This document shows, one piece after another, positions 27,438-42,572 of a stretch of DNA of 64,000 nt. Position 1 is the first letter of the stretch. Each line of letters opens with the position of its first letter. A program made the position numbers and the translations under genes. Source of the DNA: Actinocorallia populi. GTDB lineage: Bacteria > Actinomycetota > Actinomycetes > Streptosporangiales > Streptosporangiaceae. Where the stretch lies: assembly GCF_002995495.1 (NCBI RefSeq), contig NZ_PVZV01000009.1, positions 1 to 64,000 on the forward strand. The letters run 5' to 3'. The notes beneath the pieces are model-generated. The model did no database searches, had not been told where the DNA came from, and was given only the letters and a program-made list of their open reading frames with translations.

Positions 27438-28991
27438 ATGACCGGGCAGTCGTCCGAGACCGAAAGAGAACGCCGGGGATTCGGGTCATTCCTGATATGG
27501 CTCTCCGGGGCCAACACCGAGATACTGCGGCTCGCCCCCTCTGAGCGCCCGAAATACCAGGGCATGGGGGGCGCGGTCCTCACCACGGCGCTGCTCGCCT
27601 CCCTCGCGATGTTCTTCGCCATGCAGATGGCGGTCAAGGCCTCCTTCCTCGGCGCGCTCGTGGTCTCCCTCGTCTGGTTCTGGGCGATCCTCAACCTGGA
27701 CCGGTGGCTCGTCACCTCGCTGCAGCGCAGCTCCAGCCGCTGGGACCTGGTCAAGGTCGCCGTCCCCCGGCTCGTGCTGGCGCTGCTGCTCGGCCTCGTC
27801 ATCTCCACCCCGCTCGTCCTGCAGGTCTTCGACGCGGAGATCCGGACGGAGATCAGCAAGATCCGCCAGGAGGAGAGCGAGGCGTTCCAGCGGGAGCAGT
27901 CGCAGGGGTCCATCGGCGCGCGCATCGAGGAGCTGGAGGGCCTGGAGACACGGCTGCTGGCGACCATCCGCAGCGGCGGCACGGTGCTCAACGTCGAGGA
28001 CGACCCGGAGGTCAAGGCGCTGCGCGAGCGCCTGGAACCGTTCGAGAAGGAACGGTCCGAGTACGAGGACAAGGCCACCTGCGAGCTGACCGGTGACAGG
28101 TGCGAGGGCGGGAGCCGCAAGTCGGGCCCGGGACCCCGGTACGACAACTACCGCAAGAAGGCGCAGCGGGCCGCGCAGGAGATCCGGGACATCAAACAGC
28201 AGATCGACACCAAGATCGAGGCGCTGCAGGAGACGTCCCGGCAGAACAGCGGGCAGGTGCTGAACGAGGCCAAGGAGAAGCTCACCGGCGTGCAGGGCGA
28301 GCTAGGGAGGCTGAAGACCCAGCAGTCCGACCAGCAGAGCATGTTCGAGGAGAACAACGCGGCCAACACCGGCCTGCTGGTCCGCCTCGAGGCGCTCGGC
28401 CAGGCGTCCGGCGGCAACAGCACCCTGCTGTGGGCGCGGATCATGCTCTTCCTGCTGATCACCACGCTGGAATGCCTGCCGATCTTCGTCAAGGTCCTGT
28501 CGCTGGTGGGCCGCCCCAGCGCCTACGACCGGCTGCTGAAGGTCTACGAGGAGCAGTCCGTGCAGACCGGCAAGCAGACCCTGCGCACCCGGCGGGCCAC
28601 CACCTTCATCCAGAACTCCGACGAGCTCTCCTACGCCAACCATCTGCGCGACGAGCGGGAGCGGACGACCCGCGCGATGGCGCAGGCGACCGCGCAGGCG
28701 GAGTACGAGATCGCCCAGCGGGCCCTGCGCCTGTGGCGGGAGCACCGGCTGCGCGAGATCGAGGAGGATCCCGGCCGGTTCGCGCAGCCGGGCAGCCCGC
28801 TCCCGCCGCCCGGCCCGTCCCCCGAGGCGCTCCCGCCGTCCCGCCCGCCGCTCCAGGCGGAACGCGCCTCCCGGGAGGAGCGGCCGGAGGAGGGCTTCGC
28901 CCACGACCCCTACTTCCTCGCCGAACCGACACGAAGGCGGCGGCGCCGTTCCAGGTGGTGGCAGCTCCGCCCCTTCTGGAGGCGGACTTGA
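27438..28991 (+). CDS. DUF4407-type membrane protein with large extracytoplasmic coiled coil
   Basis: A 517-residue protein starting the nine-gene system. Membrane helices are at about 45-66, 68-88, 108-130 and 330-352. The loop between helices 3 and 4 (about 131-329) is a long charged coiled coil outside the membrane with a Cys pair (CELTGDRC, 215/222) that could form a disulfide. The cytoplasmic tail has a second helical stretch rich in Arg/Glu and Gln/Ala, then a Pro-rich segment and a strongly basic end (RRRRRSRWW). This matches DUF4407 proteins. A role as membrane anchor or pore-forming output of the system is inferred. The next gene starts within its stop codon. Confidence 0.85.
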   Translation: MTGQSSETERERRGFGSFLIWLSGANTEILRLAPSERPKYQGMGGAVLTTALLASLAMFFAMQMAVKASFLGALVVSLVWFWAILNLDRWLVTSLQRSSSRWDLVKVAVPRLVLALLLGLVISTPLVLQVFDAEIRTEISKIRQEESEAFQREQSQGSIGARIEELEGLETRLLATIRSGGTVLNVEDDPEVKALRERLEPFEKERSEYEDKATCELTGDRCEGGSRKSGPGPRYDNYRKKAQRAAQEIRDIKQQIDTKIEALQETSRQNSGQVLNEAKEKLTGVQGELGRLKTQQSDQQSMFEENNAANTGLLVRLEALGQASGGNSTLLWARIMLFLLITTLECLPIFVKVLSLVGRPSAYDRLLKVYEEQSVQTGKQTLRTRRATTFIQNSDELSYANHLRDERERTTRAMAQATAQAEYEIAQRALRLWREHRLREIEEDPGRFAQPGSPLPPPGPSPEALPPSRPPLQAERASREERPEEGFAHDPYFLAEPTRRRRRRSRWWQLRPFWRRT

Positions 28992-29611
28992 CGGTGCTGA
29001 ACGTCGCGGAGACCTGCGCCGCGACGCGCGCGCTCGGGCCGGGACTGCGCGCGGTGGCCTGGGTGCAGGGCTGCCCCTTTCACTGCCGGGGGTGCCTGGC
29101 GCCCGAGTGGATCCCGCAGAGGCCCGCCCGCCGGATCACACCGCGGGAGCTCGCCGCGGAGCTGCTGCGGGACGAGGCCGTCACCGGCCTGACCTTCTCC
29201 GGCGGGGAACCGATGGCGCAGGCGGAGGGGCTCGCGGAGACCGCGCGGCTGGCGCGGCGGGAGCGCGACCTCACCCTGATCTGCTTCACGGGCTTTCGCA
29301 GGGAGGAACTCGACGGCCGGGCCGGCGCGGCCGAACTGCTGGCCGAGACCGACGTGCTCATCGACGGCCGCTACGTCGACGCCCGCAATGACGACCGGGG
29401 CCTGCGCGGCAGCGACAACCAGCGCGTCCACCACCTGACCGACAGCCTGCGCGGTTTCGACTTCGACGAGGGGCGGCGCCGGGCGGAGTTCCGGTTGCGC
29501 GGCACCGAGACGCTGCTCGTCGGCGTCCCGCCTCTGCGGGTGGCCGCAGCCTGGCAGGCCATGGAGACACCGCGGACCGTACGGGACGCGGAGGGAGAGG
29601 ACGCGCAGTGA
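28988..29611 (+). CDS. Small radical-SAM activase-like protein (4Fe-4S single-cluster)
   Basis: A 207-residue protein; TTG 28988 overlaps the upstream stop (TTGA), with GTG 28994 as an alternative. The cluster motif is CPFHCRGC (Cys29, Cys33, Cys36: CxxxCxxC), followed by FSGGEP (70-75), which binds the AdoMet methionine, and LICFTGF and DVLIDGRY, as in NrdG and pyruvate formate-lyase activases. Activases install a glycyl radical in a partner enzyme, but no glycyl-radical protein is encoded nearby, so its target is unknown. Translational coupling to the DUF4407 and coiled-coil genes places it firmly in the same system. Confidence 0.88.
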   Translation: MTVLNVAETCAATRALGPGLRAVAWVQGCPFHCRGCLAPEWIPQRPARRITPRELAAELLRDEAVTGLTFSGGEPMAQAEGLAETARLARRERDLTLICFTGFRREELDGRAGAAELLAETDVLIDGRYVDARNDDRGLRGSDNQRVHHLTDSLRGFDFDEGRRRAEFRLRGTETLLVGVPPLRVAAAWQAMETPRTVRDAEGEDAQ

Positions 29612-30915
29612 GCGGGGCGAAGCGCATCAGCGTCGACCAGGGGGCCTGGAACAGGGCCCAGAAGGCCGCGCGGCGGCTGGCCGACGTGCAACGGGACCTG
29701 CCTCGGATGCTGGAGGAGGTGCGCAGGCAGCACCAGGCCGACCTCGACCGCGCCCTGGGGGCGGTCGACCGCAGGCAGCAGCAGGTCGAGAACGACCTGG
29801 GCGGGCTCAGCCGGTACACCCGCGACCTGGAGGAGCAGACCAACCGGCGGCTGCGCGAGCAGGCATCCCGGCTGAAGAGGCTGCGCGTCGAGACGGGCGA
29901 GGAGGCCCAGCGGCTGCGCAGGGAGCTCGACGAGGAGCGCGCCGCGCGAAAGCTGCTCGACGACAAGGTCGCCGAGCTGGAGAGCGGCCGTGACCGCGCC
30001 TCCGAACGGGCGCTCGCCACCTTCTCGGACGCCGTGAAGATGAGCGAGACCGTCGGGTCCATGCCGCACGAGAAGTTCGCCCCCGGACGGCTCGACAGGA
30101 TCCGGCAGCGCCTCGTCCACATCAGCGACACGCTCGAAGGGCAGGAGGCCGCCTACTCGCTGGGCCGGATACAGGAGGCCTACTTCGACCTGAGCGACCT
30201 GCGCGCCGAGGTGCAGCTCGCCGAACGGGAGTGGTGCCTGGCCCAGGCCGAGGCGCTCGGCGCGCTGCGGCTGGCCGCCGAACGCGCGGCCGCGCGCGCC
30301 GACCTGCCCGTGCCCGGCGAGGACGGCGAGCCACCGGCCGACGTCAGGCTCGTCGTCGACTTCTGGACCGACGGAGGGCTGACGGCGCTGCGCGAAGAGA
30401 TCGCCGCACTGATCCGGGAGGCGGAGGTCCTCGACGGCCCGCTGACCGTCGAGGACCTCCGCCTGGCCGTCCGGGAGCACGCCCCCCGCTACGAGGCGGA
30501 ACTGGACGCCCTGGTGGAGCGGGCGGCCGCGCGGCTGTACGCCTCGCAGCTGCGGGCCGAGACCGCCGACCACATCATCGACGCCCTGGAGGACCAGGGG
30601 TACGAGCTCGTCGAGGAGACCTACGAGGGAGAGGACTACCGGGAGGCCCACTACAGCAAGGTGCGCCACCTGGGGGACGGCAGCGAGGTGGTGGTGGAGG
30701 TCGCCCCCGAAGGCGACACGGGTCTGGCGATCCGGTTGTTGTCGTACGGCGACGGGCGTTCGGAGACGCGGCGCGTGCAGCGGGCCGAGAACCTCCTCGC
30801 CGCGCTGCGGCGGCAGGGCGTCCCCGTCGGGTCCCCCACCGACCTGGGCGTCGAGCCGTCCCCCGGGGAAGGAGACTTCCAGCTGATCCGCGGCCGTCGG
30901 CGGCGCCTTGACTGA
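29608..30915 (+). CDS. Long coiled-coil protein with conserved C-terminal domain
   Basis: A 435-residue soluble protein; GTG 29608 overlaps the previous stop (GTGA). Residues about 10-135 form an uninterrupted coiled coil (for example RRELDEERAARKLLDDKV). A helical middle part follows. A compact C-terminal alpha/beta domain lies at about 340-420 (HIIDALEDQGYELVEETY, EVVVEVAPEGDTGLAIRLL). The end is basic. I recognise no named family. Length and position suggest a scaffold that connects the membrane coiled-coil protein with the AAA+ ATPase encoded next, which overlaps it by 8 nt. Confidence 0.8.
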   Translation: MSGAKRISVDQGAWNRAQKAARRLADVQRDLPRMLEEVRRQHQADLDRALGAVDRRQQQVENDLGGLSRYTRDLEEQTNRRLREQASRLKRLRVETGEEAQRLRRELDEERAARKLLDDKVAELESGRDRASERALATFSDAVKMSETVGSMPHEKFAPGRLDRIRQRLVHISDTLEGQEAAYSLGRIQEAYFDLSDLRAEVQLAEREWCLAQAEALGALRLAAERAAARADLPVPGEDGEPPADVRLVVDFWTDGGLTALREEIAALIREAEVLDGPLTVEDLRLAVREHAPRYEAELDALVERAAARLYASQLRAETADHIIDALEDQGYELVEETYEGEDYREAHYSKVRHLGDGSEVVVEVAPEGDTGLAIRLLSYGDGRSETRRVQRAENLLAALRRQGVPVGSPTDLGVEPSPGEGDFQLIRGRRRRLD

Positions 30916-33388
30916 GCCGATCGCGACCCGCTTGAGGCCGTTCAGCCGGGCGGCCGCGGAGGGGGAGTCGCCGCTGATCCTCTACGGGCAGGGCACGCGG
31001 GACGTGTTCGTCGACGAGGCGTACCGCCGCGCCGACCTCGGCCAGGCCGTCCACGACGCCCTGGCCGCCGCGGGTTTCCAGCGGGTGGTCTTCTTCTCGC
31101 TGAAGGGCATGCTCACCGTGCGGGACCCGGCTTCCCGCCTGCGGCCCGCGCCGGAGCCGGAGCTTGCGGAGCCGCCGCGGCGCAGGCCCAGGGTGAAGGG
31201 GCCGATGGGGGAGCACCGGATCTCCCCGCGCGCGCGGCCCCGGCACGAGCCGGCCGCCCCGCCGGGTCCGGCCATGACCGACGACGCCGCGCTGCAGATG
31301 ATCGTCTCCCTGATGGGGCAGCGGGAGACGCGGACGGCGATCGTCCTGGAGAAGGTCGAGCTGATCGAGCGCTGGCTCCAGGCGGCGACGCAGCGCGACC
31401 TCGCCGTCGCGCTCGACTCCTGGCTCGGCGACCGGTCCGGCCACGGGAACGTGTGCGTGCTGGTCTTCAACAAGGACCACCTCGCGGAGGTCGAGGAGTA
31501 CGCCAGGACGAGCCGGAACCTGCCGGGCCTGCTGGACTCCGCGGTCGCCGCGGAGCGCAGGCGCCCGGGGAGTCCTGGCCTCCTCGGGCCGCCGGAGGAG
31601 GGCGAGCTGGCCGGGCTCGTGCACCGGACGCGGGTGGGCCGCGGGCTGGAGATCGGCGACTGGAGCCGGCTCGCCCACCTGGTGCGGCTCATGGGGCGGG
31701 ACGGGCTGCCGCTGGTCACCTGGGAGAACCGGCTGGACCGGCTCCGCGCGCGGCGGCGGCCGCTGACCCACGAGGCGCTGCGCGAGCAGGGCTGGGTGAG
31801 CGGCCCGGAGCTGCCCGAAGGGGACGTCTGGCAGCGGCTGGCACGGCTCAGGGGCCTGGACGGGGTCCGCGAGCACCTGGAGGGCCTGCGCTGGCGGCCT
31901 CCTTCGGGCCGGGAGGCGGTCACCCGCCACATGGTCTTCACCGGCAACCCCGGCACGGGCAAGACCACCGTCGCCCGCCTGGCCGGGGAGGTCTTCCTGG
32001 AGCTGGGCCTGCTGCGCCGCGGGCACGTCAAGGAGGTCGGCGCCGCGGACCTGGTCTCGCCGCACGTGGGCGAGACGGCCCTCAAGACCCACCGGGCGGT
32101 CGACGAGGCGATCGACGGGGTGCTGTTCATCGACGAGGCCTACATGCTGAGCGACCAGAGCGACGGCTTCGGCGGCGAGGCGATCGACACCCTCCTTGCC
32201 CGCATGGAGAACGACCGGTCGCGGCTCGTCGTCATCGCGGCCGGGTACCCGGCGCGGATCCGGGAGTTCCTGCGGGCCAACCCCGGCCTGAGCAGCCGCT
32301 TCCCGAAGGCCAACATCCTGGACTTCCCCGACTACCCTCCGGACGTCCTGACGGACATCGCCCGCAACGGGCTGGACGAGCTCGGCCTGACCCGGGGAGC
32401 GGGCTTCGACGCCGCCCTGGAGAAGGCCGTGCACCGCATGCACCGCCACCGGGACCCCGGTTTCGGGAACGCGCGGGCGATGCGCGAACTCGTCGAGGAG
32501 ACCGGTGCGCGCTGGGCGCGCAGGGTCAAGCACCTGCGGACGGCGCCGCTGGAGCCGGAGGACCTCCCCGCTGACGCGCCGCGGGGGGAGCCTCCCGCGG
32601 CGCTGGCGGAGCTGCTCGGGCCGCTCGACGGCATGATCGGCCTGGGCCCGGTGAAGGAGGGGGTGCGGTCGCTGCTGGTGCGGCTCCAGCACAACCGCCG
32701 CCGGGGCAGGGGCGAGGTGGTCGCCCCCCACCTGCTGTTCCTCGGGCCGCCCGGCACCGGCAAGACGACGGTCGCCAGGGAGCTCGGCCGGATCCTGCGG
32801 GAGCTGGGGCTGCTCGGCCGGGGTCACGTCGTCGAGGCGGGCAGGGCGGACCTGGTCGGCGCGTACGTCGGCCACACCGCGCTCAGGACCAGGGAGCGGA
32901 TCGAGGAGGCGATGGACGGGATCCTGTTCGTCGACGAGGCGTACAGCCTCTCCCGGGGCGCCGCGGAGAACGACTTCGGCCGGGAGGCCATCGACACCCT
33001 GGTGCAGGAGATGGAGAACCGGCGCGGCCGGCTCGTGGTCGTCGCCGCCGGGTACCCCGAGGAGATGTCCCGCTTCCTGGCCGCCAATCCCGGGCTTGCG
33101 TCCCGCTTCCCGGGCGTGATCGACTTCCCGCCCTACACGGTGCCCGAACTGGGGGAGATCCTGCGGACGATGGCCGAGGCCGAGGGGTACGCGCTGGGGG
33201 AGGGCGTGCCCGAGCGGGCCGCCCGGTGGCTGGAGCGGGCGAGGAGGGCACCCGACTTCGGGAACGGCCGCGGTGTGCGGGAGCTGCTCGGGCTGATGGA
33301 GGCCGGGATCGCCGAGCGCACCCAGGCCGACCCCGCAGCCGACCTCGACACCTTCCGGCCGGAGGACGTGCCCGATGCCCGTAGGTGA
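30908..33388 (+). CDS. Tandem CbxX/CfqX-type AAA+ ATPase
   Basis: 826 residues, starting at TTG 30908 inside the previous gene's end. Two complete AAA+ modules are present. Module 1 has GNPGTGKTT (346-354), Walker B VLFIDEAYML (about 404) and the sensor region LVVIAAGYPARI with SSRFPK. Module 2 has GPPGTGKTT (613-621), ILFVDEAYSL (about 672) and LVVVAAGYPEEM with SRFPG. This is the CbbX/SpoVK group, ring ATPases that remodel proteins by threading peptide tails. The N-terminal 330 residues resemble a degraded third P-loop module: AIVLEKVELIERWL sits like a Walker B strand but no Walker A is visible. There is no EccA-type TPR domain. Likely the motor or remodeller of the system. Confidence 0.92.
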   Translation: MTEPIATRLRPFSRAAAEGESPLILYGQGTRDVFVDEAYRRADLGQAVHDALAAAGFQRVVFFSLKGMLTVRDPASRLRPAPEPELAEPPRRRPRVKGPMGEHRISPRARPRHEPAAPPGPAMTDDAALQMIVSLMGQRETRTAIVLEKVELIERWLQAATQRDLAVALDSWLGDRSGHGNVCVLVFNKDHLAEVEEYARTSRNLPGLLDSAVAAERRRPGSPGLLGPPEEGELAGLVHRTRVGRGLEIGDWSRLAHLVRLMGRDGLPLVTWENRLDRLRARRRPLTHEALREQGWVSGPELPEGDVWQRLARLRGLDGVREHLEGLRWRPPSGREAVTRHMVFTGNPGTGKTTVARLAGEVFLELGLLRRGHVKEVGAADLVSPHVGETALKTHRAVDEAIDGVLFIDEAYMLSDQSDGFGGEAIDTLLARMENDRSRLVVIAAGYPARIREFLRANPGLSSRFPKANILDFPDYPPDVLTDIARNGLDELGLTRGAGFDAALEKAVHRMHRHRDPGFGNARAMRELVEETGARWARRVKHLRTAPLEPEDLPADAPRGEPPAALAELLGPLDGMIGLGPVKEGVRSLLVRLQHNRRRGRGEVVAPHLLFLGPPGTGKTTVARELGRILRELGLLGRGHVVEAGRADLVGAYVGHTALRTRERIEEAMDGILFVDEAYSLSRGAAENDFGREAIDTLVQEMENRRGRLVVVAAGYPEEMSRFLAANPGLASRFPGVIDFPPYTVPELGEILRTMAEAEGYALGEGVPERAARWLERARRAPDFGNGRGVRELLGLMEAGIAERTQADPAADLDTFRPEDVPDARR

Positions 33389-35120
33389 GGCCTCCTGCCC
33401 GGTCTGCTCGCTGCCCGCCGGGCGGCTCGACCGCTGCGCCGAGTGCGGCTGGGAGCTGCGGACGGACTGGCGGCAGGGCCGCGCCGACCGGAGCGGGTTC
33501 GCCGCCGCGCTCCAGGAGGCGGTGCTCGACCACGACCTGCGGGTGGCCGCCCGGCTGGACGAGGACTGGAAGCCGTACGCGGCCTGGCTGCGCGGCGTCC
33601 CCGACGAGGCCGCCTGGACGCGGGCGCGGACCAGGCAGGGCCCGCCCGTCCGGCCGCTGCGCCCGCTGCTGGCCAGGGTGCTGCCCGCGCTGGGCGCCGC
33701 CGACTCGCTGGCCGTGTTCGAGACGGACGCCGAAGGCGTCGCGGTGACCCTGGTCCGGGCGGGGGAGCTGGAGCAGGCCGACCGTTCGGCCCGGCACGGC
33801 GTCACCTGGCGGGAGCTCGTGCCGATGCTCGCGCAGGACCCCGCCGAGCGGAGGTTCCAGCTCGCGGGCGGGCTGGCCGGGCTCGACCGGGCCACCCTGG
33901 AGGCGGTGCTGCGCCAGCGGCTCACCCGCTGGGCCGAGGGTCTGGCCGAGGGCATGGTGCGCATCGCCGTCTGCCGCGCCCCGGGCTGGACCCTCCCGGA
34001 GCAGGCCGTGCGGTCGCTGGGTTCGATGACGGCCCGGGAGACCGGGCGGGTCCAGGACGCGCTGGACGGGATACGGGCGGAGCTGCCGCTGCGCGTGCCG
34101 TACGGGCTGCTGGTCGCCGCGGTGAACCCCGACCGGACGGTGCGCATGGCCACCAGGCCGCTGTTCGCCGCGGGGACCCGGCCCGGGACGTCCGCGCGGG
34201 CGGGCGTGCGGTGCGTCGAGGGCGGCGTGGCGCAGGACACGGTGCTCGCGGTGGTCACCGAGGAACCCGCGCGGCGGCTGGTCTCCGCCTGGTCGGGGCC
34301 GCTGGACCCGGGCGGGGCACACGAACTCGAGGTCCTGCTGGAGGCGCCCGGCCGGGTCCGCCTGGTGCGGCCGGGCGGCATGGCGGCCGACCCCCGCAGC
34401 CTCGCGGAGCTGGAACGGCTGGCGCCCGCCCGGCTCGACCTGCGGGCGGAACAGATCGAGCTGGTCTGCCTGCTCGAACTCAACGGCCGTCCGGAACCGG
34501 TCGCCCGGCGCAGGGAACTGCTGTCCGGGCTGTTCGAGCTGCTGGCGCGGGAGGCGCCCGGCCGGGTCTCCGCGGCGGTCCTCGGGTACGGGGAGCACTT
34601 CGCGGCGGGCAGGAAGCACCCGGCCGTGCTGCACGGCGACTGGCTCAGGCCGCTGCCGGAGGCCCGGGAGGTGCTCGACGCGCTGCCCGACCGTGCCACC
34701 GGCTTCTACCCGAACGCGGCGCCGCTGGAGGACGCCCTGCACGAGGTCGTGGACCGCGGCGCGCGGGACCCGTTCGCCTACTCGCGGGTCCTGCTCGTCC
34801 TGGCCGGGCGCACCGCCCACCCGCCGTCCACCCCCCTTCTCCAGGACGTGGACAGGCCCGCCCACGCCTGCCTGAACGGCCTCGACTGGCAGGACTCCGC
34901 CGCGCGCCTCGACTTCGCGGCGAAGGTGACCCGGCGCTTCGCCGTGCTCGACCGCCTGGACGAGGCCGCCCGCGCGGAACCCCTCTGGCGGGAGCTCGGC
35001 AGGGACCTGCTCGTCGAGCTCCCGAAGGCCACGCCGCGCCGGCTGGCCGTCGACATGAACCTGATCCCGGCGGATCCGGTCCGCTGCCCGTTTCCGCTCG
35101 CCGACGTCCCTGCGAGGTGA
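33375..35120 (+). CDS. Zinc-ribbon protein with possible degenerate vWA domain
   Basis: 581 residues, ATG 33375, overlapping the AAA+ gene by 14 nt. The N-terminus is a zinc ribbon with two Cys pairs (Cys8/Cys11 and Cys21/Cys24, CPVC and CAEC). The middle is helical. From about residue 360 the pattern ELVCLLELNGRP, a long helix with ELLSGLFELLAREA, then VSAAVLGYGE and VLLVLAGR has the strand-helix order of a von Willebrand A fold, but the DxSxS metal site is missing. vWA-like and AAA+ proteins often work as pairs. The fold call for the C-terminal part is inference and needs profile or structure comparison. Confidence 0.75.
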   Translation: MPVGEASCPVCSLPAGRLDRCAECGWELRTDWRQGRADRSGFAAALQEAVLDHDLRVAARLDEDWKPYAAWLRGVPDEAAWTRARTRQGPPVRPLRPLLARVLPALGAADSLAVFETDAEGVAVTLVRAGELEQADRSARHGVTWRELVPMLAQDPAERRFQLAGGLAGLDRATLEAVLRQRLTRWAEGLAEGMVRIAVCRAPGWTLPEQAVRSLGSMTARETGRVQDALDGIRAELPLRVPYGLLVAAVNPDRTVRMATRPLFAAGTRPGTSARAGVRCVEGGVAQDTVLAVVTEEPARRLVSAWSGPLDPGGAHELEVLLEAPGRVRLVRPGGMAADPRSLAELERLAPARLDLRAEQIELVCLLELNGRPEPVARRRELLSGLFELLAREAPGRVSAAVLGYGEHFAAGRKHPAVLHGDWLRPLPEAREVLDALPDRATGFYPNAAPLEDALHEVVDRGARDPFAYSRVLLVLAGRTAHPPSTPLLQDVDRPAHACLNGLDWQDSAARLDFAAKVTRRFAVLDRLDEAARAEPLWRELGRDLLVELPKATPRRLAVDMNLIPADPVRCPFPLADVPAR

Positions 35121-35122
35121 CC

Positions 35123-36157
35123 ATGTCCACGCCCCCGGCTCCCGCGACCCCCACGCCCCCGCCGCCGCCCGATCCCGCCGCGTCCCGGGGCCGGATCGGG
35201 TTGTGGGGGCCGCCCGCCAGCGGCAAGACCACCTTCCTGGCGGCGCTGGGCCTGGCCCTCGACCGCGGCGACTTCCCGTGGCTGCTCTACGGGCGGGACG
35301 AATGGTCCAACACGTTCCTGTCCTCCCACACCGACCTGCTCCGGCAGAAGACGTTCCCCCCGGCCACGACCGACCTCTCGCGGGAGCTGTCGTGGGTGTT
35401 CCGGGGCAGCCGGACGATCCGGGAGGGCAGGCTGCTGCGCAGGTCCACACGGGAGGTCGTCTCCGAGCTCGACCTCGAGCTGATCGACGCGCCGGGCGGC
35501 TACTTCATCGGCAGGTCGCAGCCGGCCGAGCCGTCCAGGGTGCGGTTCGACGACGATGACGACGAGGAGGAGAGCCAGGAGGAGCGGCTGTACCGCCACC
35601 TCGGCGCCTGCCACGGCCTCATCTACCTCTTCGACCCCACCCGGGAGCGCACCAGGAAGGACTCCTATGACTACTTCCACCACACGGTGCTGCAGATCGC
35701 GCGGCGGTCGGCGGCGCGGAGCGGGGACCGCTTCCTGCCCCAGCACCTCGCGGTGTGCATCACGAAGTTCGACCACCCGCACGTCTACGGACCGGCGTTC
35801 AAGAACGGCTTCATCGACCAGACGCTCAACCCCCAGCACTTCCCCGCGGTGCCCGACGACCTGGCCGAGGAGCTGTTCGAGTTCCTGGGCGAGGCCGACC
35901 GCGAGAGCAGCGCGGTCCTGCTCAGGAACAGCATCCGGCGGCACTTCCACCCCGACCGGACCCGCTACTTCATGACCTCGGCGGTCGGCTTCTACCTCGA
36001 CCCCGACCTCGGCAGGTTCCGGCACTCCCAGTACTGGAACGTCGTCGAGGAGGAGGGCGACGAGGGGCGGACCTCCCGGATCCTGGGCGACGTCTACCCC
36101 GTCAACGTGGTGGAGCCGCTGGCATGGCTGGCCGAGACCCTGCTGCCGAGGAGCTGA
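35123..36157 (+). CDS. P-loop GTPase of the GAP1-associated type
   Basis: A 344-residue protein with a Pro-rich N-terminal tail (2-20), Walker A GPPASGKTT (29-37), a G3-like DAPGG (from Asp122) and the specificity motif TKFD (214-217), so guanine specificity is likely. The insertion after G3 includes a run of acidic residues (DDDDDEEE). The C-terminal half is helical. It abuts the GAP1 gene (1-nt gap), an arrangement expected for a GTPase and its dedicated partner. As I recall, such GTPase-GAP1 pairs were described computationally as cores of predicted conflict systems. Likely the nucleotide-driven switch of the system. Confidence 0.88.
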   Translation: MSTPPAPATPTPPPPPDPAASRGRIGLWGPPASGKTTFLAALGLALDRGDFPWLLYGRDEWSNTFLSSHTDLLRQKTFPPATTDLSRELSWVFRGSRTIREGRLLRRSTREVVSELDLELIDAPGGYFIGRSQPAEPSRVRFDDDDDEEESQEERLYRHLGACHGLIYLFDPTRERTRKDSYDYFHHTVLQIARRSAARSGDRFLPQHLAVCITKFDHPHVYGPAFKNGFIDQTLNPQHFPAVPDDLAEELFEFLGEADRESSAVLLRNSIRRHFHPDRTRYFMTSAVGFYLDPDLGRFRHSQYWNVVEEEGDEGRTSRILGDVYPVNVVEPLAWLAETLLPRS

Positions 36158-36158
36158 G

Positions 36159-38663
36159 ATGGTCCGCGCACGGATCGGCTGGGGACTGCGGGGCAAGCCC
36201 GCGGGCAGCCACGACGAGTACGCCGTTCTCGCCGCGGGCGGCCCGGCGTTCGGCAAGGGCGACTACGCGGGCATCTTCTCGCGGTTCTCCCCGGGCAACC
36301 CGCCGGTGGGCCGGGAGAGCCCGGGGTCGCTGCCCTGGGTGGTGCTCAGCGTGTTCCGCGACGACCACGAGCACTACCTCGGCCTGACGGTCCAGGACTG
36401 GTCGAACGACACCGACGCGGCGGGCCGCCCCATCTCGCTCAGCAGGTGCTTCGCCGTCCCGTACACGCTGGTCGCGGAGAACCGGATCTCCTACCGGGAC
36501 CTCTACACGGCCCTGCACGCGGTGGACCTCCCGCCCGACGGCAGGACGCTGGACGTCGAGCTGCCCGAGACGGCGGAGGGCGCGCAGGCCGCGCTGGTGG
36601 AGCGGTTCGGCTTCGAACGGGCCGCCGCGGCGGCGGCCCTCCTCCTCGAAGGCCCGGTGACCGTCACCCGCGCGGAGGAGCTGACCCCGCGGGACAGGGT
36701 GGACTTCTTCGAGGCGGTCGCCGCCCTGCTGCCCTGCGGCTGGCGCACCCGCTTCACCGCGAGCACCTGGCACAACGACGGAAGCCGGCATCTCGGCCTG
36801 GTCTTCGCCCGGCAGCGCCGGTCCGGCTCGGTGGAACTGGACTGGCAGACGCCCCGGTTGCCGTCCGAGTCGGTGATCGCGGGCGACTACTGGGGGCAGC
36901 TCCACGAGCTGAAGGGGGTGCGGGGCATCCCTCTGTCCGTCATCGTGGCCCACCTGGCGGGCTGCGGGGAGCCGCTCGCCGGAGCCGAGCCGTCCGAGGC
37001 CGTCCACATCTTCGCGGACCTGGACAGGCCCCGCACCGTTCTGAAAGCGGCCATGGGCGGCAGGGCCTCGGCCGAGGACCTCCGCTGGGTGTTCACCTCG
37101 GGACGCTTCCGGGAACTGCGCGCCGAGGAGCGGGCCGCCCTGTTCGACCAGCTGGTCGGGCTGGGAGACGTCGAGGACATCCCGCTCGTCGAACGGCTCT
37201 GGGCGGAGGCCGGAGGCGACCTGAAGTCGCTCGTCCGGGCCGCACGGACGGATCTGCGGCGGCGGGACCCGTCGGAAGAAGGAAGCCGCTATCTGGGGGC
37301 CGCCGAGCGGCTGGGGCTCGCGGATCCCTTCCTGGCCGGGTTGGTCCGGCTTCTGGAGCCGGGAGAGGATCCCGGCGGGGAGGTCATGGTGGCGCGGCTG
37401 GTGATGGCCCGCTCCCAAAGGGACCACATTGCGACGTTCCAGGCCGTGGCCGACAACAAAGCGGTGCTGCACCAGCTGCTCTGCCACCTGGCGGTCGACA
37501 GGGGAGCGGATCTCGTCGGCTGGTTCCGGCAGCTGTCCCGTTTCGTTCCGGCGGACTTCCTCCATCCCTTCTTCCGTGTTCTCCACGGGGACGCGGAGCG
37601 GCCCCTGGACGCCGAGACCCTGTCGGGGTTCCTGGCCCACGGCTCCGCGTCGCTCCATGCGCTGCTGGTCGCGGCGGAGGTCAGGGGGCGGCTGGACCGG
37701 GTGCTTCCCGAGTTCGCGTCCCTGGTGATCACCGACGCCAGGCTCGGCCACGCCTTCTGGACCGACTGGATCTTCGAGCTCGACCCGGTCGGAGGGCACG
37801 ACCGGGGAATGCTGGACGTGCTCCTCCTCTGGCGGGACCGGTCGCCTCGCCATCTGGAGAAGGCCGCGCTGGAGGACTGGCGCGGATACCGGGAGGGGTT
37901 CGTCGCGGGGTGCGCGATTCCCGGGGTGGAGGCCGGGCTCGACAGGATCCTCGCCGGGCTGGCCGCCCACCTGCGGGAATGGAACTGGTGCAAGGACCCC
38001 CGGCAGGTGGCCGTGGTGCTCGCGCTGGCCACGGCCTACCGGGAATCCCCGGTGCTGACGGCGGCGGTGCTCGCGGCCCGGGCCGCGGCACCGGAGCTGT
38101 CGGACGACGAGGGGTACCGCTCCTGGCGGGAGCAGGCGCTCCAGAGGCACGCGCCGCTGGAGGGCCAGGAGCCCGTGATCGTCCTGAAGGCGCTGCCGCG
38201 GGACGCCGCAGCGGAGAACGTGGGACGGCTCTGCGCGGAGATGCTCGGGCGCGGCGTCCTGCCGAGCAGGCTGGTGGAGTGCCTGGACCAGTCGCACTGG
38301 CGGCTCACCGGGGACCGTCTGGTCGGTCTTCTGACCGGGGCCCGGAGTTCTCTCCGCGCGAGCGGGGTGTCCGAGGCCGGAGCCAGGGAGAAGTGCCGGA
38401 TCCTGACCGCCGCGATCCAGCGGAGCAGGAGCCGGCCGCATATGAGCGACGCGCATCTGAGTGATCTGCGGTACACGGCCGTCCAGAGCATCTGCACGGA
38501 GCTGGAGCACTACTCCTTCCTGCTGGAGACCATCGCGGCGGACACCGAGGACAAGAAGTCCTTCCACGTGGGCGACCAGTCCCGGCAGCGGCTGATCGAG
38601 CTCTCCGCCTGGCTGAAGGGCGTCATCGAGGCGAGCCGGTCCAGGAAGTTCTTCGGCCGATGA
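36159..38663 (+). CDS. GTPase-associated protein 1 (GAP1) family protein
   Basis: An 834-residue helical protein starting at ATG 36159, one base after the GTPase stop. The N-terminal domain opens with IGWGLRGKPAGSHDEYAVLA and continues with SLSRCFAVPY, YRDLYTAL and LLPCGWRTRFTAST; this layout fits the GAP1 N-terminal type 2 domain. The remainder is an alpha-solenoid-like middle and C-terminal region (ALFDQLVGLGDVEDIPLVERLW, WRLTGDRLVGLL). A paralogue at 55963-58359 is alignable along its whole length. The likely role is to read or regulate the nucleotide state of the adjacent GTPase and recruit the downstream chaperone-like protein, whose gene overlaps by 4 nt. The mechanism is not known. Confidence 0.85.
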   Translation: MVRARIGWGLRGKPAGSHDEYAVLAAGGPAFGKGDYAGIFSRFSPGNPPVGRESPGSLPWVVLSVFRDDHEHYLGLTVQDWSNDTDAAGRPISLSRCFAVPYTLVAENRISYRDLYTALHAVDLPPDGRTLDVELPETAEGAQAALVERFGFERAAAAAALLLEGPVTVTRAEELTPRDRVDFFEAVAALLPCGWRTRFTASTWHNDGSRHLGLVFARQRRSGSVELDWQTPRLPSESVIAGDYWGQLHELKGVRGIPLSVIVAHLAGCGEPLAGAEPSEAVHIFADLDRPRTVLKAAMGGRASAEDLRWVFTSGRFRELRAEERAALFDQLVGLGDVEDIPLVERLWAEAGGDLKSLVRAARTDLRRRDPSEEGSRYLGAAERLGLADPFLAGLVRLLEPGEDPGGEVMVARLVMARSQRDHIATFQAVADNKAVLHQLLCHLAVDRGADLVGWFRQLSRFVPADFLHPFFRVLHGDAERPLDAETLSGFLAHGSASLHALLVAAEVRGRLDRVLPEFASLVITDARLGHAFWTDWIFELDPVGGHDRGMLDVLLLWRDRSPRHLEKAALEDWRGYREGFVAGCAIPGVEAGLDRILAGLAAHLREWNWCKDPRQVAVVLALATAYRESPVLTAAVLAARAAAPELSDDEGYRSWREQALQRHAPLEGQEPVIVLKALPRDAAAENVGRLCAEMLGRGVLPSRLVECLDQSHWRLTGDRLVGLLTGARSSLRASGVSEAGAREKCRILTAAIQRSRSRPHMSDAHLSDLRYTAVQSICTELEHYSFLLETIAADTEDKKSFHVGDQSRQRLIELSAWLKGVIEASRSRKFFGR

Positions 38664-39784
38664 CCGGGACCCTGGTGCTGGATCTCGACGAGTTCACGGC
38701 CACGCTCGTGCGTTCGGGCGTGCCGGAGGTGCACCGGCTGCCGCCCGGCCTCCGGCTGGACGGGCTGGCCGTGCCCGGTTGCCGTTTCGTCGTCCTCCTT
38801 CCGGACTCGGGGGACGAGCTCGGCTGGCAGGAGGCGGCGCACCGGGTGGTCGCGCCCTTCGGGCGGCCCGTCTACGCCGACCGGTTGACCGCGGTCGCCG
38901 CGGCCGCGGGGGCCGGGGGGATCTCGGGGGCGTTCCCGGTGTGCGATCTGGCGGCGGGAGGACTGCACGCGGGCTTCGCCGAGGTCGCGGAGAACCGGAT
39001 CCGGGTGGACCACCGGATACGTGAACCCGAACTGGGCTGGGCGTCCTTCGTCGGCGCCGTGGTGCGCGCGCTGCCCGGCCGGAGCGGTCCTGCCGTCCAC
39101 CGGGCCCTGGCCGACGGCGGGGAGCGGCTCGCGGTCACCCTGCGGCTCGCCCGGGAGGACGCCGCCTACGGGGACACGCCCGCGGTGTGGGTGGAGGGGC
39201 AGGCGGTCCCCGCGGGCCTGCTGCTGGACTGCCTCACCCCTTACGCGCAGCGGCTGCGTTCCGCGCTGGCGGAGCTGCGCGTGCCGGCCGCCGAACCGGT
39301 GCTGGCGGGGGAGTTCGTCGGTTTCCCGCTGCTGCGCGAATTCGTCTTCGACGTCTCCGGTGAGAAGCCCGGAGCGTTCTCGCCGGGGCCGCACGCGGCG
39401 GCGCACGGGGCCGTCCAGCTGGCCTCGGGCCGGTTCACCCGGCAGGAGCCCCTCCCGCTGCCGCTGAAGCTGCCTCTGCACCGGGTCAGGAACGGCCTGC
39501 TGGAGGAGGCGAACATCCCGATCCCCGTCGGGCCGGGGGAGTTCGCCTCCCTGGGGGAGCGGCCGCTGCGTCTGGGGGCGGGCCCCGGTGACGTTCCGCT
39601 GGGAGACCGCGCCGAGCTCGTCCTGGAAGCGGCGGACGGGGTGCGCAGGCTCGACCTCTCCGCGCTGCCCGCGGGCTCCTACGAGGTGGGGCTGCGCGTC
39701 TCCCGCCGGCTCGGGGCGGTGCTGGCCTTGCGCGCCGGTGACGGAGCCACTCCCGTCTTCATCCCCTTGGAGGCCAGGACATGA
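38660..39784 (+). CDS. Degenerate Hsp70/actin-like (ASKHA) ATPase-fold protein
   Basis: 374 residues; ATG 38660 overlaps the GAP1 stop (ATGA). The N-terminus LVLDLDEFTATLV sits where Hsp70 has its phosphate-1 motif, FPVCDLAAGGLHAGFAEV matches phosphate-2, and EPVLAGEFVGFPLLREFV matches the adenosine-binding strand-helix, in the right order and spacing. The first glycine-rich loop (GTT/GTS) is replaced by DEF and the second lacks GGGT, so ATP hydrolysis may be lost. The end (about 290-374) is a small beta-rich module, not an Hsp70 substrate-binding domain. This looks like a chaperone-derived structural or sensing partner. The fold assignment rests on motif order only. Confidence 0.65.
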   Translation: MTGTLVLDLDEFTATLVRSGVPEVHRLPPGLRLDGLAVPGCRFVVLLPDSGDELGWQEAAHRVVAPFGRPVYADRLTAVAAAAGAGGISGAFPVCDLAAGGLHAGFAEVAENRIRVDHRIREPELGWASFVGAVVRALPGRSGPAVHRALADGGERLAVTLRLAREDAAYGDTPAVWVEGQAVPAGLLLDCLTPYAQRLRSALAELRVPAAEPVLAGEFVGFPLLREFVFDVSGEKPGAFSPGPHAAAHGAVQLASGRFTRQEPLPLPLKLPLHRVRNGLLEEANIPIPVGPGEFASLGERPLRLGAGPGDVPLGDRAELVLEAADGVRRLDLSALPAGSYEVGLRVSRRLGAVLALRAGDGATPVFIPLEART

Positions 39785-40680
39785 GCGATTCGTCCCGTAC
39801 GGAGCTGCGCGCCGCGCTGGCCGCCGTGATCGAGGAGGCGCGGTCGGTCGACCTCACCGACGACACCGCCGCGCTCGTCTTCGTCACCGGTCTGCAGCGG
39901 GCGCTCGAAGACCTGCCTGAGCTGTTCGGCCTGGCCGGGACGCTCATCGAGGCGGCCATGCTGGGTTCGACCGCCCGCGAGCGCCTCGCCGGCCGGATCG
40001 CCGAGCTCGACCGGCTGCGTGCCGAGCTCGGCGAGGAGCAGCAGACCCTGCGCCGGCTGCAGCCGGTCCTCGCCGAGCTGAAGGCGGCCGCCGCCGAGCG
40101 GGAGAGGGTCGCGCAGGAGCTGGCCGAGCTCCAGCGGTTGCGGTCGTTGGCCGAGGAGCTGCCCGCACTGCGGGAGCAGCGGCTTCTGCTGGAGCGCCGG
40201 CGTGCGGAACTGGAGTCCGCCGAGGCGGCGGAAGCGGCGCTGGCCTCGGCCGCCGACGAACTCGTCCGGTCGTCCGACGCCCGGCTCGCCTTGCTGGCCC
40301 CGTTGGCCAGGGAGGCGGTCGAGCATGCGGACAGGGCCGATCGCGAACTCGCCGCCGCCAAGGCCAGGCTGCTGGAGGAACAGGTCAGGTCGAAGACCCT
40401 GACCGCTGAGCTGGCGGCGCTCACCGCGGACTTCGAGGCGCTGCGTGAGCAGAGCGAGAGGCGGATCCCCTTTCTGCAGCGCTACCGGGAGGCCGACGCA
40501 GAGCTCAGGGACGGCCTGGCCCGCGGCGCCCCGGACGGGAGAACGGGCCTGGACCAGGCCCGGACCGCCCTCGCCGAAGTCGAGGAGCGGCTCCAGGAGA
40601 TCGACGGGCTGCTCCGCTCCGCCCTGCACGCGCACGACAAGTCGTATGCCGAGCTGCGGGCGGAGACGGGACTGCTCTGA
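39781..40680 (+). CDS. Coiled-coil protein, last gene of the GAP1 system
   Basis: A 299-residue soluble protein; ATG 39781 overlaps the previous stop (ATGA). After a 65-residue helical head (LVFVTGLQRALEDLPELFGL) it is a near-continuous Leu/Glu/Arg/Ala coiled coil (for example RIAELDRLRAELGEEQQTL and LREQRLLLERRRAELE), ending in short helices. There are no membrane segments and no enzymatic motifs. With the other coiled-coil protein and the DUF4407 membrane protein it provides a third helical rod in one operon, suggesting a large assembled complex. No family name recognised. Confidence 0.8.
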   Translation: MSDSSRTELRAALAAVIEEARSVDLTDDTAALVFVTGLQRALEDLPELFGLAGTLIEAAMLGSTARERLAGRIAELDRLRAELGEEQQTLRRLQPVLAELKAAAAERERVAQELAELQRLRSLAEELPALREQRLLLERRRAELESAEAAEAALASAADELVRSSDARLALLAPLAREAVEHADRADRELAAAKARLLEEQVRSKTLTAELAALTADFEALREQSERRIPFLQRYREADAELRDGLARGAPDGRTGLDQARTALAEVEERLQEIDGLLRSALHAHDKSYAELRAETGLL

Positions 40681-40695: not shown

Positions 40696-41343
40696 GTGCG
40701 CCACTTCATGGGACTTTTGGCAACTTTGTCAATCTTGGTATGTCTATGTCCCGCCCCGGCGGTGGCCGAACCGGTGAGGAGCCGGGCGGACCTGCTGGCG
40801 GAACGGCTGAAGAAGCGGCCCGTCCAGGTGGGCGACCACGAGCTGCGGGTGGTTCCGGAGGGGGCGGCGGAGCGGATCGAGCAGACGCTCGGGGCGCTGG
40901 GGGTGCCGTTCTTCGTCGTGGTGGAGACGGCGGGCCTGTACCGGGTGGAACGGGAGGAGCCCGGAGAGCTGATCCCGCTGCTGCGAGACCGGCTCAGGAA
41001 GAAGGGCGTCTACCTGGTGACCGACCCGTCGGGAGACGGGACGGCGCGGCAGTACGGCGGGGCGTTGCCGGTGGAGCAGGCCTGGCACACGGCACGGATG
41101 GAGATGCCGTACGACGCGGACGTGACGGAGTACGTGGCGCGGTTCGTGGAGATCCTGAAGGCACCCGACGTCAACGCGCGGATCGAGGCGCGGCGGCAGG
41201 CGCCGAAGCCGGAGTACCAGGTGCGCGCCGAAGCGCGTGACCGGGCGGAGATGAAGGCTTTCACCATCGGCGCGGCGGTGGGCGGGCTGCCGCTGCTCGT
41301 GCTGCTGGCCTTCCGTTTCGTGCGGAAGGGAGCGCGGAAATGA
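40696..41343 (+). CDS. Secreted/anchored protein, TPM-like, first of a paralogous pair
   Basis: A 215-residue protein with an N-terminal signal peptide (hydrophobic core LLATLSILVCLC, cleavage near AVAEP) and a C-terminal membrane helix (about 191-207, AAVGGLPLLVLLAF) followed by a basic tail (RFVRKGARK). The extracytoplasmic domain (ADLLAERLKKRPVQV, VPFFVVVE, LRKKGVYLV) has the helix-strand pattern of TPM-like domains: a degraded strand-loop core where a family member would have acidic residues. It shares architecture with the next gene. A link to the upstream GAP1 system is positional only. Confidence 0.7.
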   Translation: MRHFMGLLATLSILVCLCPAPAVAEPVRSRADLLAERLKKRPVQVGDHELRVVPEGAAERIEQTLGALGVPFFVVVETAGLYRVEREEPGELIPLLRDRLRKKGVYLVTDPSGDGTARQYGGALPVEQAWHTARMEMPYDADVTEYVARFVEILKAPDVNARIEARRQAPKPEYQVRAEARDRAEMKAFTIGAAVGGLPLLVLLAFRFVRKGARK

Positions 41344-42572
41344 GGGCGGCTGCGTTCTTGCTGACGGCGGTGCTGGTGCTGCTCGTCCCGGGAGGCGGCG
41401 CGTCCGCCGACGAGCCGCCGTACGCGCTCACCCGCCTGGACCGGGTGGCCACGGCGCTGGAGAAGGACCCCTTCTTCATCGACGAGGAACTCCTGGGGAC
41501 GCTGGACGCCAAGGAGCGCAAACGGATCCGGACGGCGATCAGGAGGACGAGCAGGAGTCTGGGCATGCCGGTGTTCGTGCTCCTGATCCCCAACCCGTCG
41601 AGTTCGGAGGCCGACGGCCGCAACGACGTGTTCCTGCACTGGCTGCACGACGAGCTCGGCAAGGACGGCCTCTATCTGATGGCCGACCACGAGGCGGACC
41701 TGGAGGTCGTGCCGTTCGAGGTTCCGCGTGACATCGGATACATGCTCATCGGCGAGGAGCTGGTCGACTCCGCCGACCCTGGAGACCCCTTCGCCGACCT
41801 GCCCCAGCGGATCGAGGGCGCGCTCGACGAACTGGCCGGGACGCCGCCGGGAGAACCCGCCACACCCAGGCTGTACGCCACCGCCGACCCGTTCGGCCGG
41901 AAAGAGCTCCCGGTGAACGAACCGGAGACGTGGGGCTCTTTCTGGGGAGGCCTGTTCGCGGGCCTGAGCGCCGTCCTGGCGCTGTACGGGATCGCCGTGG
42001 CGATCCGGGGACGCTACCGGTCCCTGACGCGCTCTCCCCACGATTCTCCCCAGCCCCGGGTCAAGAGCCTGCGCGCGCTGGCGGACGAGGAGCTGGCAAG
42101 GCTCGCCGCGCTGATGCCGCCTCCCGACGACGCGCCGGGCCGCCTGTACGTCCAGCGGTCCTACGACGCCGCCCGGTTCCTGTCCGAAGGCGTCGGCCCC
42201 GACCCGGGCCCCCGCGACACCGGCGCGGCACTCGACCTGGTCGGGGTCATCGTGCTGGCCAGGCAGGGCCGCGAGATCCTGGAGAAGGACCTGCTCCGCC
42301 CGCTCGTCCCGTGCCGGATGAATCCGCTGCACGGTCCGGGTGTGCTGAAGCGCAAGGTGGTCGGGATGCCCACGGGCAAGGTGTGCCGGGCATGCGCGGA
42401 CGTCCGGCCGAACGAGCGCGGTGACAAGGTGCTCAGGGTGCCCGGCGGCTACCGCTACCACGAGGTGGACGGCCGCTGGAAGCGCGGTTACGTCGGCCAG
42501 GACCTGGCCGAAAGGGTGCTGGAGTCCCTCAGCGCCGAACGGTTCGGAGATGAAGATCGCCCCAGGGGCTGA
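41340..42572 (+). CDS. Secreted-domain/membrane protein, second of a paralogous pair
   Basis: 410 residues; ATG 41340 overlaps the previous stop (ATGA). A signal peptide (LLTAVLVLLVPGGGASA) is followed by an extracytoplasmic domain that repeats the layout of its neighbour (VATALEKDPFFIDEELL, LGMPVFVLLIP, DELGKDGLYLMAD). A membrane helix lies at about 202-222 (LFAGLSAVLALYGIAVAI). The cytoplasmic half is unlike the neighbour: helical, then a late segment with CRMNPLHGP and KVCRACADV, a possible metal-binding Cys/His cluster. It may transmit an outside signal to a cytoplasmic partner. Family not identified with certainty. Confidence 0.7.
   Translation: MRAAAFLLTAVLVLLVPGGGASADEPPYALTRLDRVATALEKDPFFIDEELLGTLDAKERKRIRTAIRRTSRSLGMPVFVLLIPNPSSSEADGRNDVFLHWLHDELGKDGLYLMADHEADLEVVPFEVPRDIGYMLIGEELVDSADPGDPFADLPQRIEGALDELAGTPPGEPATPRLYATADPFGRKELPVNEPETWGSFWGGLFAGLSAVLALYGIAVAIRGRYRSLTRSPHDSPQPRVKSLRALADEELARLAALMPPPDDAPGRLYVQRSYDAARFLSEGVGPDPGPRDTGAALDLVGVIVLARQGREILEKDLLRPLVPCRMNPLHGPGVLKRKVVGMPTGKVCRACADVRPNERGDKVLRVPGGYRYHEVDGRWKRGYVGQDLAERVLESLSAERFGDEDRPRG

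Follow-up and report, generated by a model that had tools for sequence, protein, structure and literature searches.

The DNA analysed here comprises positions 1–64,000 of contig NZ_PVZV01000009.1 of Actinocorallia populi (hereafter the window), and our subject is a cassette of nine tightly packed genes, A–I, that lies on its + strand at 27438–40680. The cassette is conserved in more than one genus and consists of two joined modules: a GTPase core (A, E, F and G) and a radical S-adenosylmethionine (SAM)/AAA+ unit (B, C and D), in which B is an enzyme of a family marked by the motif LGPG and C a coiled-coil protein that starts with Met/Val-Ser-Gly (hereafter MSG). Across the loci surveyed, such a tail is associated with the LGPG enzyme. 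With less than even confidence, we propose that LGPG radical-SAM enzymes are maturases of a Met-Ser-Gly-x(-Pro)-Lys tail on a diverse neighbouring protein, that an AAA+ motor reads the modified tail, and that the cassette couples this unit to a membrane GTPase switch. No description of the cassette or of the MSG association was found in open-access titles and abstracts; DUF4407 is mentioned in three of the papers listed.

A Met-Ser-Gly tail often accompanies LGPG radical-SAM enzymes

Gene C (29608–30915, +) opens with a GTG start followed by codons for Ser-Gly-Ala-Lys (codons 1–5, 29608–29622, +), a recurrent N-terminal tail through which, on the basis of alignment and start surveys, C is the proposed substrate of B. 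Homologs of C with a visible start begin [M/V]SG in 62 of 64 cases, nearly all with Lys at position 5 (59 of 65 were tagged SG by script; L161, L192 and L253 were added as MSG and L084, which is cut off, was set aside; some genomes are counted twice here and in the 20-locus comparison below). A broader survey combined 80 loci from a scan of a genome collection with the B alignment (80 of 224 relatives were kept), 14 plasmid stretches from listings of 17 and 52 records, and 20 of 43 match places. These 114 radical-SAM loci were dereplicated at 70% identity to 73, of which 45 carry LGPG and 28 another motif.

When the start dipeptides encoded near the LGPG enzymes were scanned, Ser-Gly was found in 26 of 45 loci, compared to nine for the next dipeptide and a mean of 1.2 over 400 dipeptides. 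After inspection, an MSG partner was assigned in 29 of these 45 loci (L268, starting MSGELF and lacking the Lys, was dropped; L175, L186, L195 and L262 (annotated) were added; a VSGPAD start in L191, 162 residues, was left uncounted). None of 27 loci in which the Leu is replaced by D, N or E has a convincing MSG partner (L146, with LGSG, had been removed from the 28 as a family member), and the sole Ser-Gly start counted among them, in L264, lies inside an annotated phage baseplate gene. On two plasmids the annotated starts agree, the MSG proteins being WP_015173947.1 in Calothrix and WP_084095654.1 in Aristaeella. Once stripped of their first ten residues, 14 partners form five groups without BLAST links at 1e-3, remote coiled-coil homology being possible; Pfam searches with nine such partners gave no match for eight and a weak Exonuc_VII_L match for one.

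The LGPG enzyme differs from PFL activase at a substrate-anchoring position

Gene B (28988–29611, +; TTG start at 28988) encodes a 207-residue radical-SAM enzyme that resembles NrdG and the activase of pyruvate formate-lyase (PFL-AE) by its Fer4_12 match (105.9 bits in Pfam, where Radical_SAM is also matched) and its motifs; against NrdG family TIGR02491 it scores 94.9 bits, below the cut-off of 126.1. The CxxxCxxC motif is invariant in a 14-row alignment of B, in which C29, C33, C36, SGGEP and the RGSxNQ region, a motif that we take to be that of NrdG, are kept. A 24-row alignment of LGPG enzymes likewise has the three Cys invariant, one row with longer spacing, and the Leu of LGPG in 24 of 24 rows, which were chosen from LGPG enzymes. 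The family, judging by the titles of records, occurs in about ten phyla, several members coming from metagenome-assembled genomes (MAGs).

The established role of activase-fold radical-SAM enzymes, mostly seen in anaerobes, is to charge glycyl-radical enzymes. The family profile of B matches PFL-AE (3c8f/3cb8, E 4e-13) such that LGPG aligns to DGPG with the Leu on Asp16, and the position of Asn38 is Ala in the window copy, with Asn kept in some Firmicutes members. In the part of the structural report consulted, Asp16 and Asn38 of PFL-AE hold the substrate residue Gly734 (PMC9326890). Because these two positions carry Leu and Ala, B may bind something other than a classical glycyl-radical loop. 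B shares the small Fer4_12 radical-SAM fold of PFL activase and NrdG but differs from them in both contact residues and in having no linked glycyl-radical enzyme that we recognised: none of the NrdD or any other type was found in the cassette by Pfam or NCBIfam. A glycyl-radical-like loop was seen by eye only in E, where it falls within a vWA strand and was judged a chance resemblance. No assigned substrate was found for activase-fold radical-SAM enzymes beside AAA+ motors in aerobic filamentous actinobacteria. The earlier note on this DNA, made from the letters and open reading frames, had singled out the radical-SAM activase as the first thing to examine, a choice that these results support.

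Gene D (30908–33388, +) encodes an N-terminal region followed by two AAA+ domains of the CbxX/SpoVK/EccA type, each with Walker A and B motifs, as identified by Pfam, NCBIfam and profile comparison. The AAA+ profile matches CbbX (263 bits) and EccA1 (227 bits); a SpoVK score of 425.3 bits, against a cut-off of 422.95, covers two matched stretches and is probably the sum of the two domains. Although D shares this profile with CbbX and EccA, it differs from them in its doubled AAA+ domain and extra N-terminal region, and no Rubisco or type VII secretion genes were recognised in the cassette. The N-terminal region, of ~310 residues, may be a degenerate NTPase-like domain. An AAA+ gene is present in 38 of 44 LGPG loci tested.

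Conserved gene order and two separable modules

Gene calls and domain searches bear out the layout and parts list that the earlier note had given, nine consecutive packed genes: adjoining genes overlap by 4 nucleotides (A/B, B/C, E/F, G/H and H/I), 8 (C/D) or 14 (D/E), and the F/G junction, with a 1-nucleotide gap, is the sole one without overlap. H was matched in 22 of 341 genomes of the family, a count made up of the host, two genomes with short, weak matches that were left unfetched (G016 and G198), and 19 genomes that gave 20 fetched loci. The order E-F-G-H is found in all 20. B is present in 17 of them, C and D in 18 each and I in 19, with the order B-C-D kept and the misses lying at contig or stretch ends; A is present in 15, on the same strand in nine and divergent in six. 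Its recurrence in all 20 fetched loci, as far as the contigs and stretches reach, is more than chance would give, and conservation of gene order beyond this strain, a point on which the earlier note had staked its reading, is what we found, in more than one genus.

The cassette also has sharp edges, since its flanks are not common to the main clades of fetched cassettes, which differ in the genes outside A and I, and since the two genes downstream of I in the window (J and K) occur in no other locus compared. Pairwise protein distances correlate (Spearman 0.31 to 0.85, least for E), as expected for a unit mostly inherited together. The cassette probably moves laterally; when an empty site was sought in two genomes of the same genus, the flanks were not syntenic and no clean site was found.

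A second set of fetched loci, 15 of the 38 non-host genomes with a G match, is reduced: DUF4407, E, F and G were found by tblastn in 15 of 15, without B, C, H or I and without any D match of at least 120 bits. DUF4407 stands on the strand opposite to E in all 15, and in 13 it is adjoined by a gene from a cluster that includes Ser/Thr kinases (two members were scanned, and both are kinases). Turning to the B side, the best 44 loci of the collection scan (B identity 56–76%) include C (43 loci), D (42), E (41), F and G (36 each), H (26) and A (21), and span Actinomadura, Nonomuraea, Streptomyces, Kitasatospora, Frankia, Lentzea and others, together with one Chloroflexi MAG. In Streptomyces, Frankia and Lentzea, too, B-C-D is kept in company with E, F and G, sometimes in a different order. 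Nine of the 44 loci (eight Streptomyces and one Kitasatospora) run E-F-G-H, B-C-D and then I reversed, an arrangement present in S. lavendulae CCM 3239 (L181).

Outside actinobacteria, the B-C-D unit was seen in the Chloroflexi MAG (L161, order H-I-B-C-D-E), a Calothrix plasmid (L253, order Hsp70, TPR, B, C, D, zinc-ribbon gene) and a contig of the gammaproteobacterium Thiocapsa (order C, B, D); in two of these it is accompanied by Hsp70-like and zinc-ribbon genes. In the Calothrix locus, the TPR protein encoded upstream of the radical-SAM gene (L253:1049–4999) likewise has an annotated MSG start (MSGSEDRG).

These loci qualify a further proposal of the earlier note, that three nucleotide-driven switches feed one assembly. 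Because the DUF4407-E-F-G core stands without the AAA+ and radical-SAM genes in 15 of 15 reduced loci, such an arrangement would be a property of the cassette and not of the core.

A tentative mechanism and the evidence that weighs on it

We envisage the cassette as a self-contained machine driven by nucleoside triphosphates (NTPs) and built from its two modules. A, E, F and G would form a membrane-tethered GTPase switch; B would modify the Met-Ser-Gly-x-Lys tail of C; and D would grip or thread that tail and so assemble or take apart C. The reduced Hsp70-like protein H and I could serve as accessory chaperone and scaffold parts coupling both modules, and E-F-G-H would act through A as a membrane-side gate on the process. 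The action of B on C, and of D on its tail, we infer; the mechanism as a whole we regard as possible, somewhat short of probable. If true, tail tagging by radical-SAM enzymes would add a new form of post-translational control. The Met-Ser-Gly tail offers a small, testable candidate substrate for activase-fold enzymes, and the cassette presents the GTPase core and the radical-SAM/AAA+ unit as modules that can be separated within a broader class of NTP-driven machines.

Several observations weigh against this proposal. C homologs account for 14 of the 29 MSG partners and are therefore not independent cases, and the others could be remote homologs that keep their start. Gly3 is not invariant, as five of the 34 LGPG loci with a partner start it with MSSSPK, MSRSPK, MSNSPK, MSRGK or MSRLGDK, and 11 of the 45 LGPG loci gave no partner, several of them lying on short contigs. 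Beyond the distance or start-codon limits of the scan, L265 has a TTG start reading LSGRRP close to its EGPG enzyme, and L284 and L285, whose enzymes are NrdG-like, have MSGFVK starts (153 residues, 3.4 kb away); we read all three as chance, although they tell against a clean split. Plasmid systems with an EGPG enzyme have an AAA+ gene too, and their neighbours start MSR, MSK, MSA, MSE and MYL, that is, with MS but not MSG in four of five. The protein distances of E fit those of the other proteins less well (Spearman 0.31–0.67). Finally, a PADLOC search gave nothing beyond pVip for B (E 0.0046), coiled-coil matches of the JetC type, and AAA+ matches for D (best IetA, 3.7e-11, 41 bits). As to the residue concerned, Gly3 is attractive because related activases act on glycine, and Ser2, the Lys or the backbone could matter instead since Gly3 is lost in five loci.

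The same tail could alternatively be a docking or degradation tag read by D, with B a classical activase that serves an unlinked glycyl-radical protein and does not touch C directly. The tails of proteins are what AAA+ proteins of the CbbX type act on, AAA+ genes adjoin LGPG enzymes also where MSG is absent, and B keeps RGSxNQ, a motif of NrdG. However, MSG tracks the LGPG type and not the mere presence of an AAA+ gene, as five EGPG plasmid systems have AAA+ without MSG, and Pfam recognised no glycyl-radical enzyme in the cassette; we consider this explanation rather unlikely.

The GTPase module and its Hsp70-like partner

Gene A (27438–28991, +) encodes a 517-residue membrane coiled-coil protein of the DUF4407 family (Pfam PF14362, 256.9 bits, cut-off 31.3). 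A second DUF4407 gene lies at C9:124783–125799 (−) of the host genome, on the same contig. F (35117–36157, +; GTG start at 35117) is a P-loop GTPase near DO-GTPase2 (PF19993): the window copy scores 26.5 bits, just under the cut-off of 27, and 22 of 23 homolog rows match at E<=1 (best 3.3e-6). It carries P-loop, G3 and G4 motifs, with Walker A kept in 22 of 23 aligned rows and DxxG and [TN]KxD in 23 of 23; the Walker A exception, L081, has its GTPase gene matched in two frames, an apparent frameshift.

E (33375–35120, +) is predicted, from alignment, an AlphaFold2 model and Foldseek, to combine a zinc knuckle, a beta-rich middle and a vWA-like C-terminal domain. The CxxC..CxxC knuckle is present in 17 of 22 aligned rows, and the model (predicted local distance difference test, pLDDT, 88.5) matches integrin beta I/vWA domains (8fz4_A, target-normalised template-modelling (TM) score 0.59). 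DnaK ranks first in Foldseek for E (E-value 1.2e-7), at a TM-score of ~0.2 and with a sequence-profile E-value of 0.62; because these TM-scores are low and the profile comparison null, E as a second Hsp70-like protein was rejected and the vWA reading alone kept.

G (36159–38663, +; 834 residues) was called GAP1 by the earlier note, and that firm label does not hold. GAP1-M is matched by nine of 26 G rows at E<=1 (best 1.1e-4), the window copy not among them, and one G homolog passed the GAP1-M cut-off in the genome search (26.4 against 24 bits). GAP1-N2 is matched by none of the 26 rows at E<=1, and hhalign of the N-terminal 420 residues against 34 canonical GAP1-N2 proteins gave a probability of 1.1 and E 0.05, so that canonical membership was rejected after Pfam and hhalign. 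By sequence, G is at most a distant relative of GAP1. A separate canonical GAP1-N2 is encoded elsewhere in the host genome. The window holds a stand-alone second G paralog at 55963–58359 (+), with 44–47% identity and no adjoining E or F match.

H (38660–39784, +; 374 residues, much shorter than DnaK) is, by modelled fold and profile comparison, a reduced Hsp70-like protein. Its AlphaFold2 model (pLDDT 88.5) has only Hsp70-family chains among the 50 listed Foldseek matches, 7krv_B first (E 1.0e-11), the best match having a TM-score of 0.52 on the query and a root-mean-square deviation of about 10 Å. The H profile matches a DnaK profile drawn from 24 related loci (probability 92.7, E 4.3e-7), compared to E 0.046 or worse for five other cassette profiles used as controls, and a sequence search of the PDB with H returned DnaK chains (E 5.5e-7). 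Pfam HSP70 gave weak matches in four of 21 H rows (best 0.029), short of the curated score, and none for the window copy. The earlier description of H as degenerate fits that copy, which has lost the phosphate-1 motif, and does not extend to the family, since five of 21 aligned rows keep D[IVL]GTxTT. H probably lacks the Hsp70 lid. The last cassette gene, I (39781–40680, +), is a coiled-coil protein identified by alignment. Pfam gave no match above cut-off for C, E, G, H or I.

These parts invite comparison with known systems. In the sections of Kaur et al. 2020 drawn on here, some NTP-dependent conflict systems pair GTPases with GAP1, Hsp70, vWA and coiled-coil parts (PMC7159879), a match that sustains the kinship in logic proposed by the earlier note, and radical SAM is named once, in FtsH systems. 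With the DO-GTPase/GAP1-N2 systems of the Hsp70 theme, as outlined there, the cassette shares a GTPase upstream of a large GAP1-like protein, an Hsp70-like partner, vWA, membrane parts and an actinobacterial setting; it differs in having no GAP1-N2, FNIII or GrpE match, in an E that is zinc-ribbon/vWA-like, and in adding radical SAM, the MSG coiled coil, a twin CbxX AAA+ protein and DUF4407. With the FtsH ternary systems, so far as described in the same sections, it shares a radical-SAM enzyme whose predicted target is the product of an adjacent gene, but its AAA+ protein is of the CbxX type, no FtsH-type system is present, and the modification that we propose falls on a large coiled coil, at its N-terminal tail (PMC7159879). 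We class the cassette with NTP-dependent conflict-type systems as a variant form.

It might instead simply be a GAP1-N2/DO-GTPase conflict system of the Hsp70 theme (PMC7159879, in the parts consulted) that has gained extra genes, as the GTPase near DO-GTPase2, the GAP1-M similarity, the Hsp70-like H, the vWA-like E and the actinobacterial distribution would suggest. The absence of GAP1-N2 from all 26 G rows together with the poor profile comparison, the lack of FNIII and GrpE among the Pfam matches listed for ten proteins (those listed for D being the best 25 of 35 families; no FNIII match was found for G either), and the separate canonical GAP1-N2 of the host all speak against such an origin, which we hold doubtful.

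For the variant form with tail maturation that we favour, the likeliest use would be to respond inducibly to invaders or to damage of the cell, DUF4407 and the coiled coils providing the output at the membrane; a defence role is plausible by analogy with the systems of Kaur et al. 2020 and because the cassette is patchily distributed and has movable edges. A developmental or envelope-stress machine acting in septation, spore formation or membrane integrity, and not in immunity, is suggested by the membrane part A, the actinomycete bias and the kinase-including cluster beside DUF4407 in most reduced loci, but seems rather unlikely, since the patchiness of H and the clade-specific flanks fit a dispensable, movable cassette better and related radical-SAM genes sit on plasmids.

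Neighbouring genes and related plasmid systems

J and K (40696–42572, +) begin 15 nucleotides past I and are of secreted or membrane type, K being weakly TPM-like, under the cut-off; absent from all other loci compared, they were rejected as cassette members.

The EGPG plasmid systems resemble B-C-D in placing a coiled-coil-looking hypothetical gene next to genes for an AAA+ protein and a small radical-SAM enzyme, but differ in the EGPG motif, the lack of MSG, a PIN partner and the absence of any annotated GTPase gene in the stretches read. Plasmids of Moellerella, Polaromonas, Leisingera, Acinetobacter and Photobacterium (L254, L255, L258, L259 and L260) carry PIN, hypothetical, AAA and EGPG radical-SAM genes. 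On plasmids of Paenarthrobacter, Rhodococcus and Paenibacillus (L256, L257, L265 and L266), a radical-SAM gene stands in a row with AAA and small genes (DUF2997, in Paenibacillus also DUF1257). On a Geminocystis plasmid (L261), an LGFF-type radical-SAM gene precedes several small genes whose starts look P-loop-like, and an anti-phage dCTP deaminase is encoded nearby. The Aristaeella plasmid row (L262) reads kinase, MSG protein, FHA protein, LGPG radical SAM, AAA, phosphatase, DUF6273, kinase. The host genome itself holds, at C11:227833–240441 (L269), a radical-SAM gene of an H[HF]PVTxLGPG branch with an AAA+ gene, for which no MSG partner was found; this branch is also present in L263, L271, L278 and L279.

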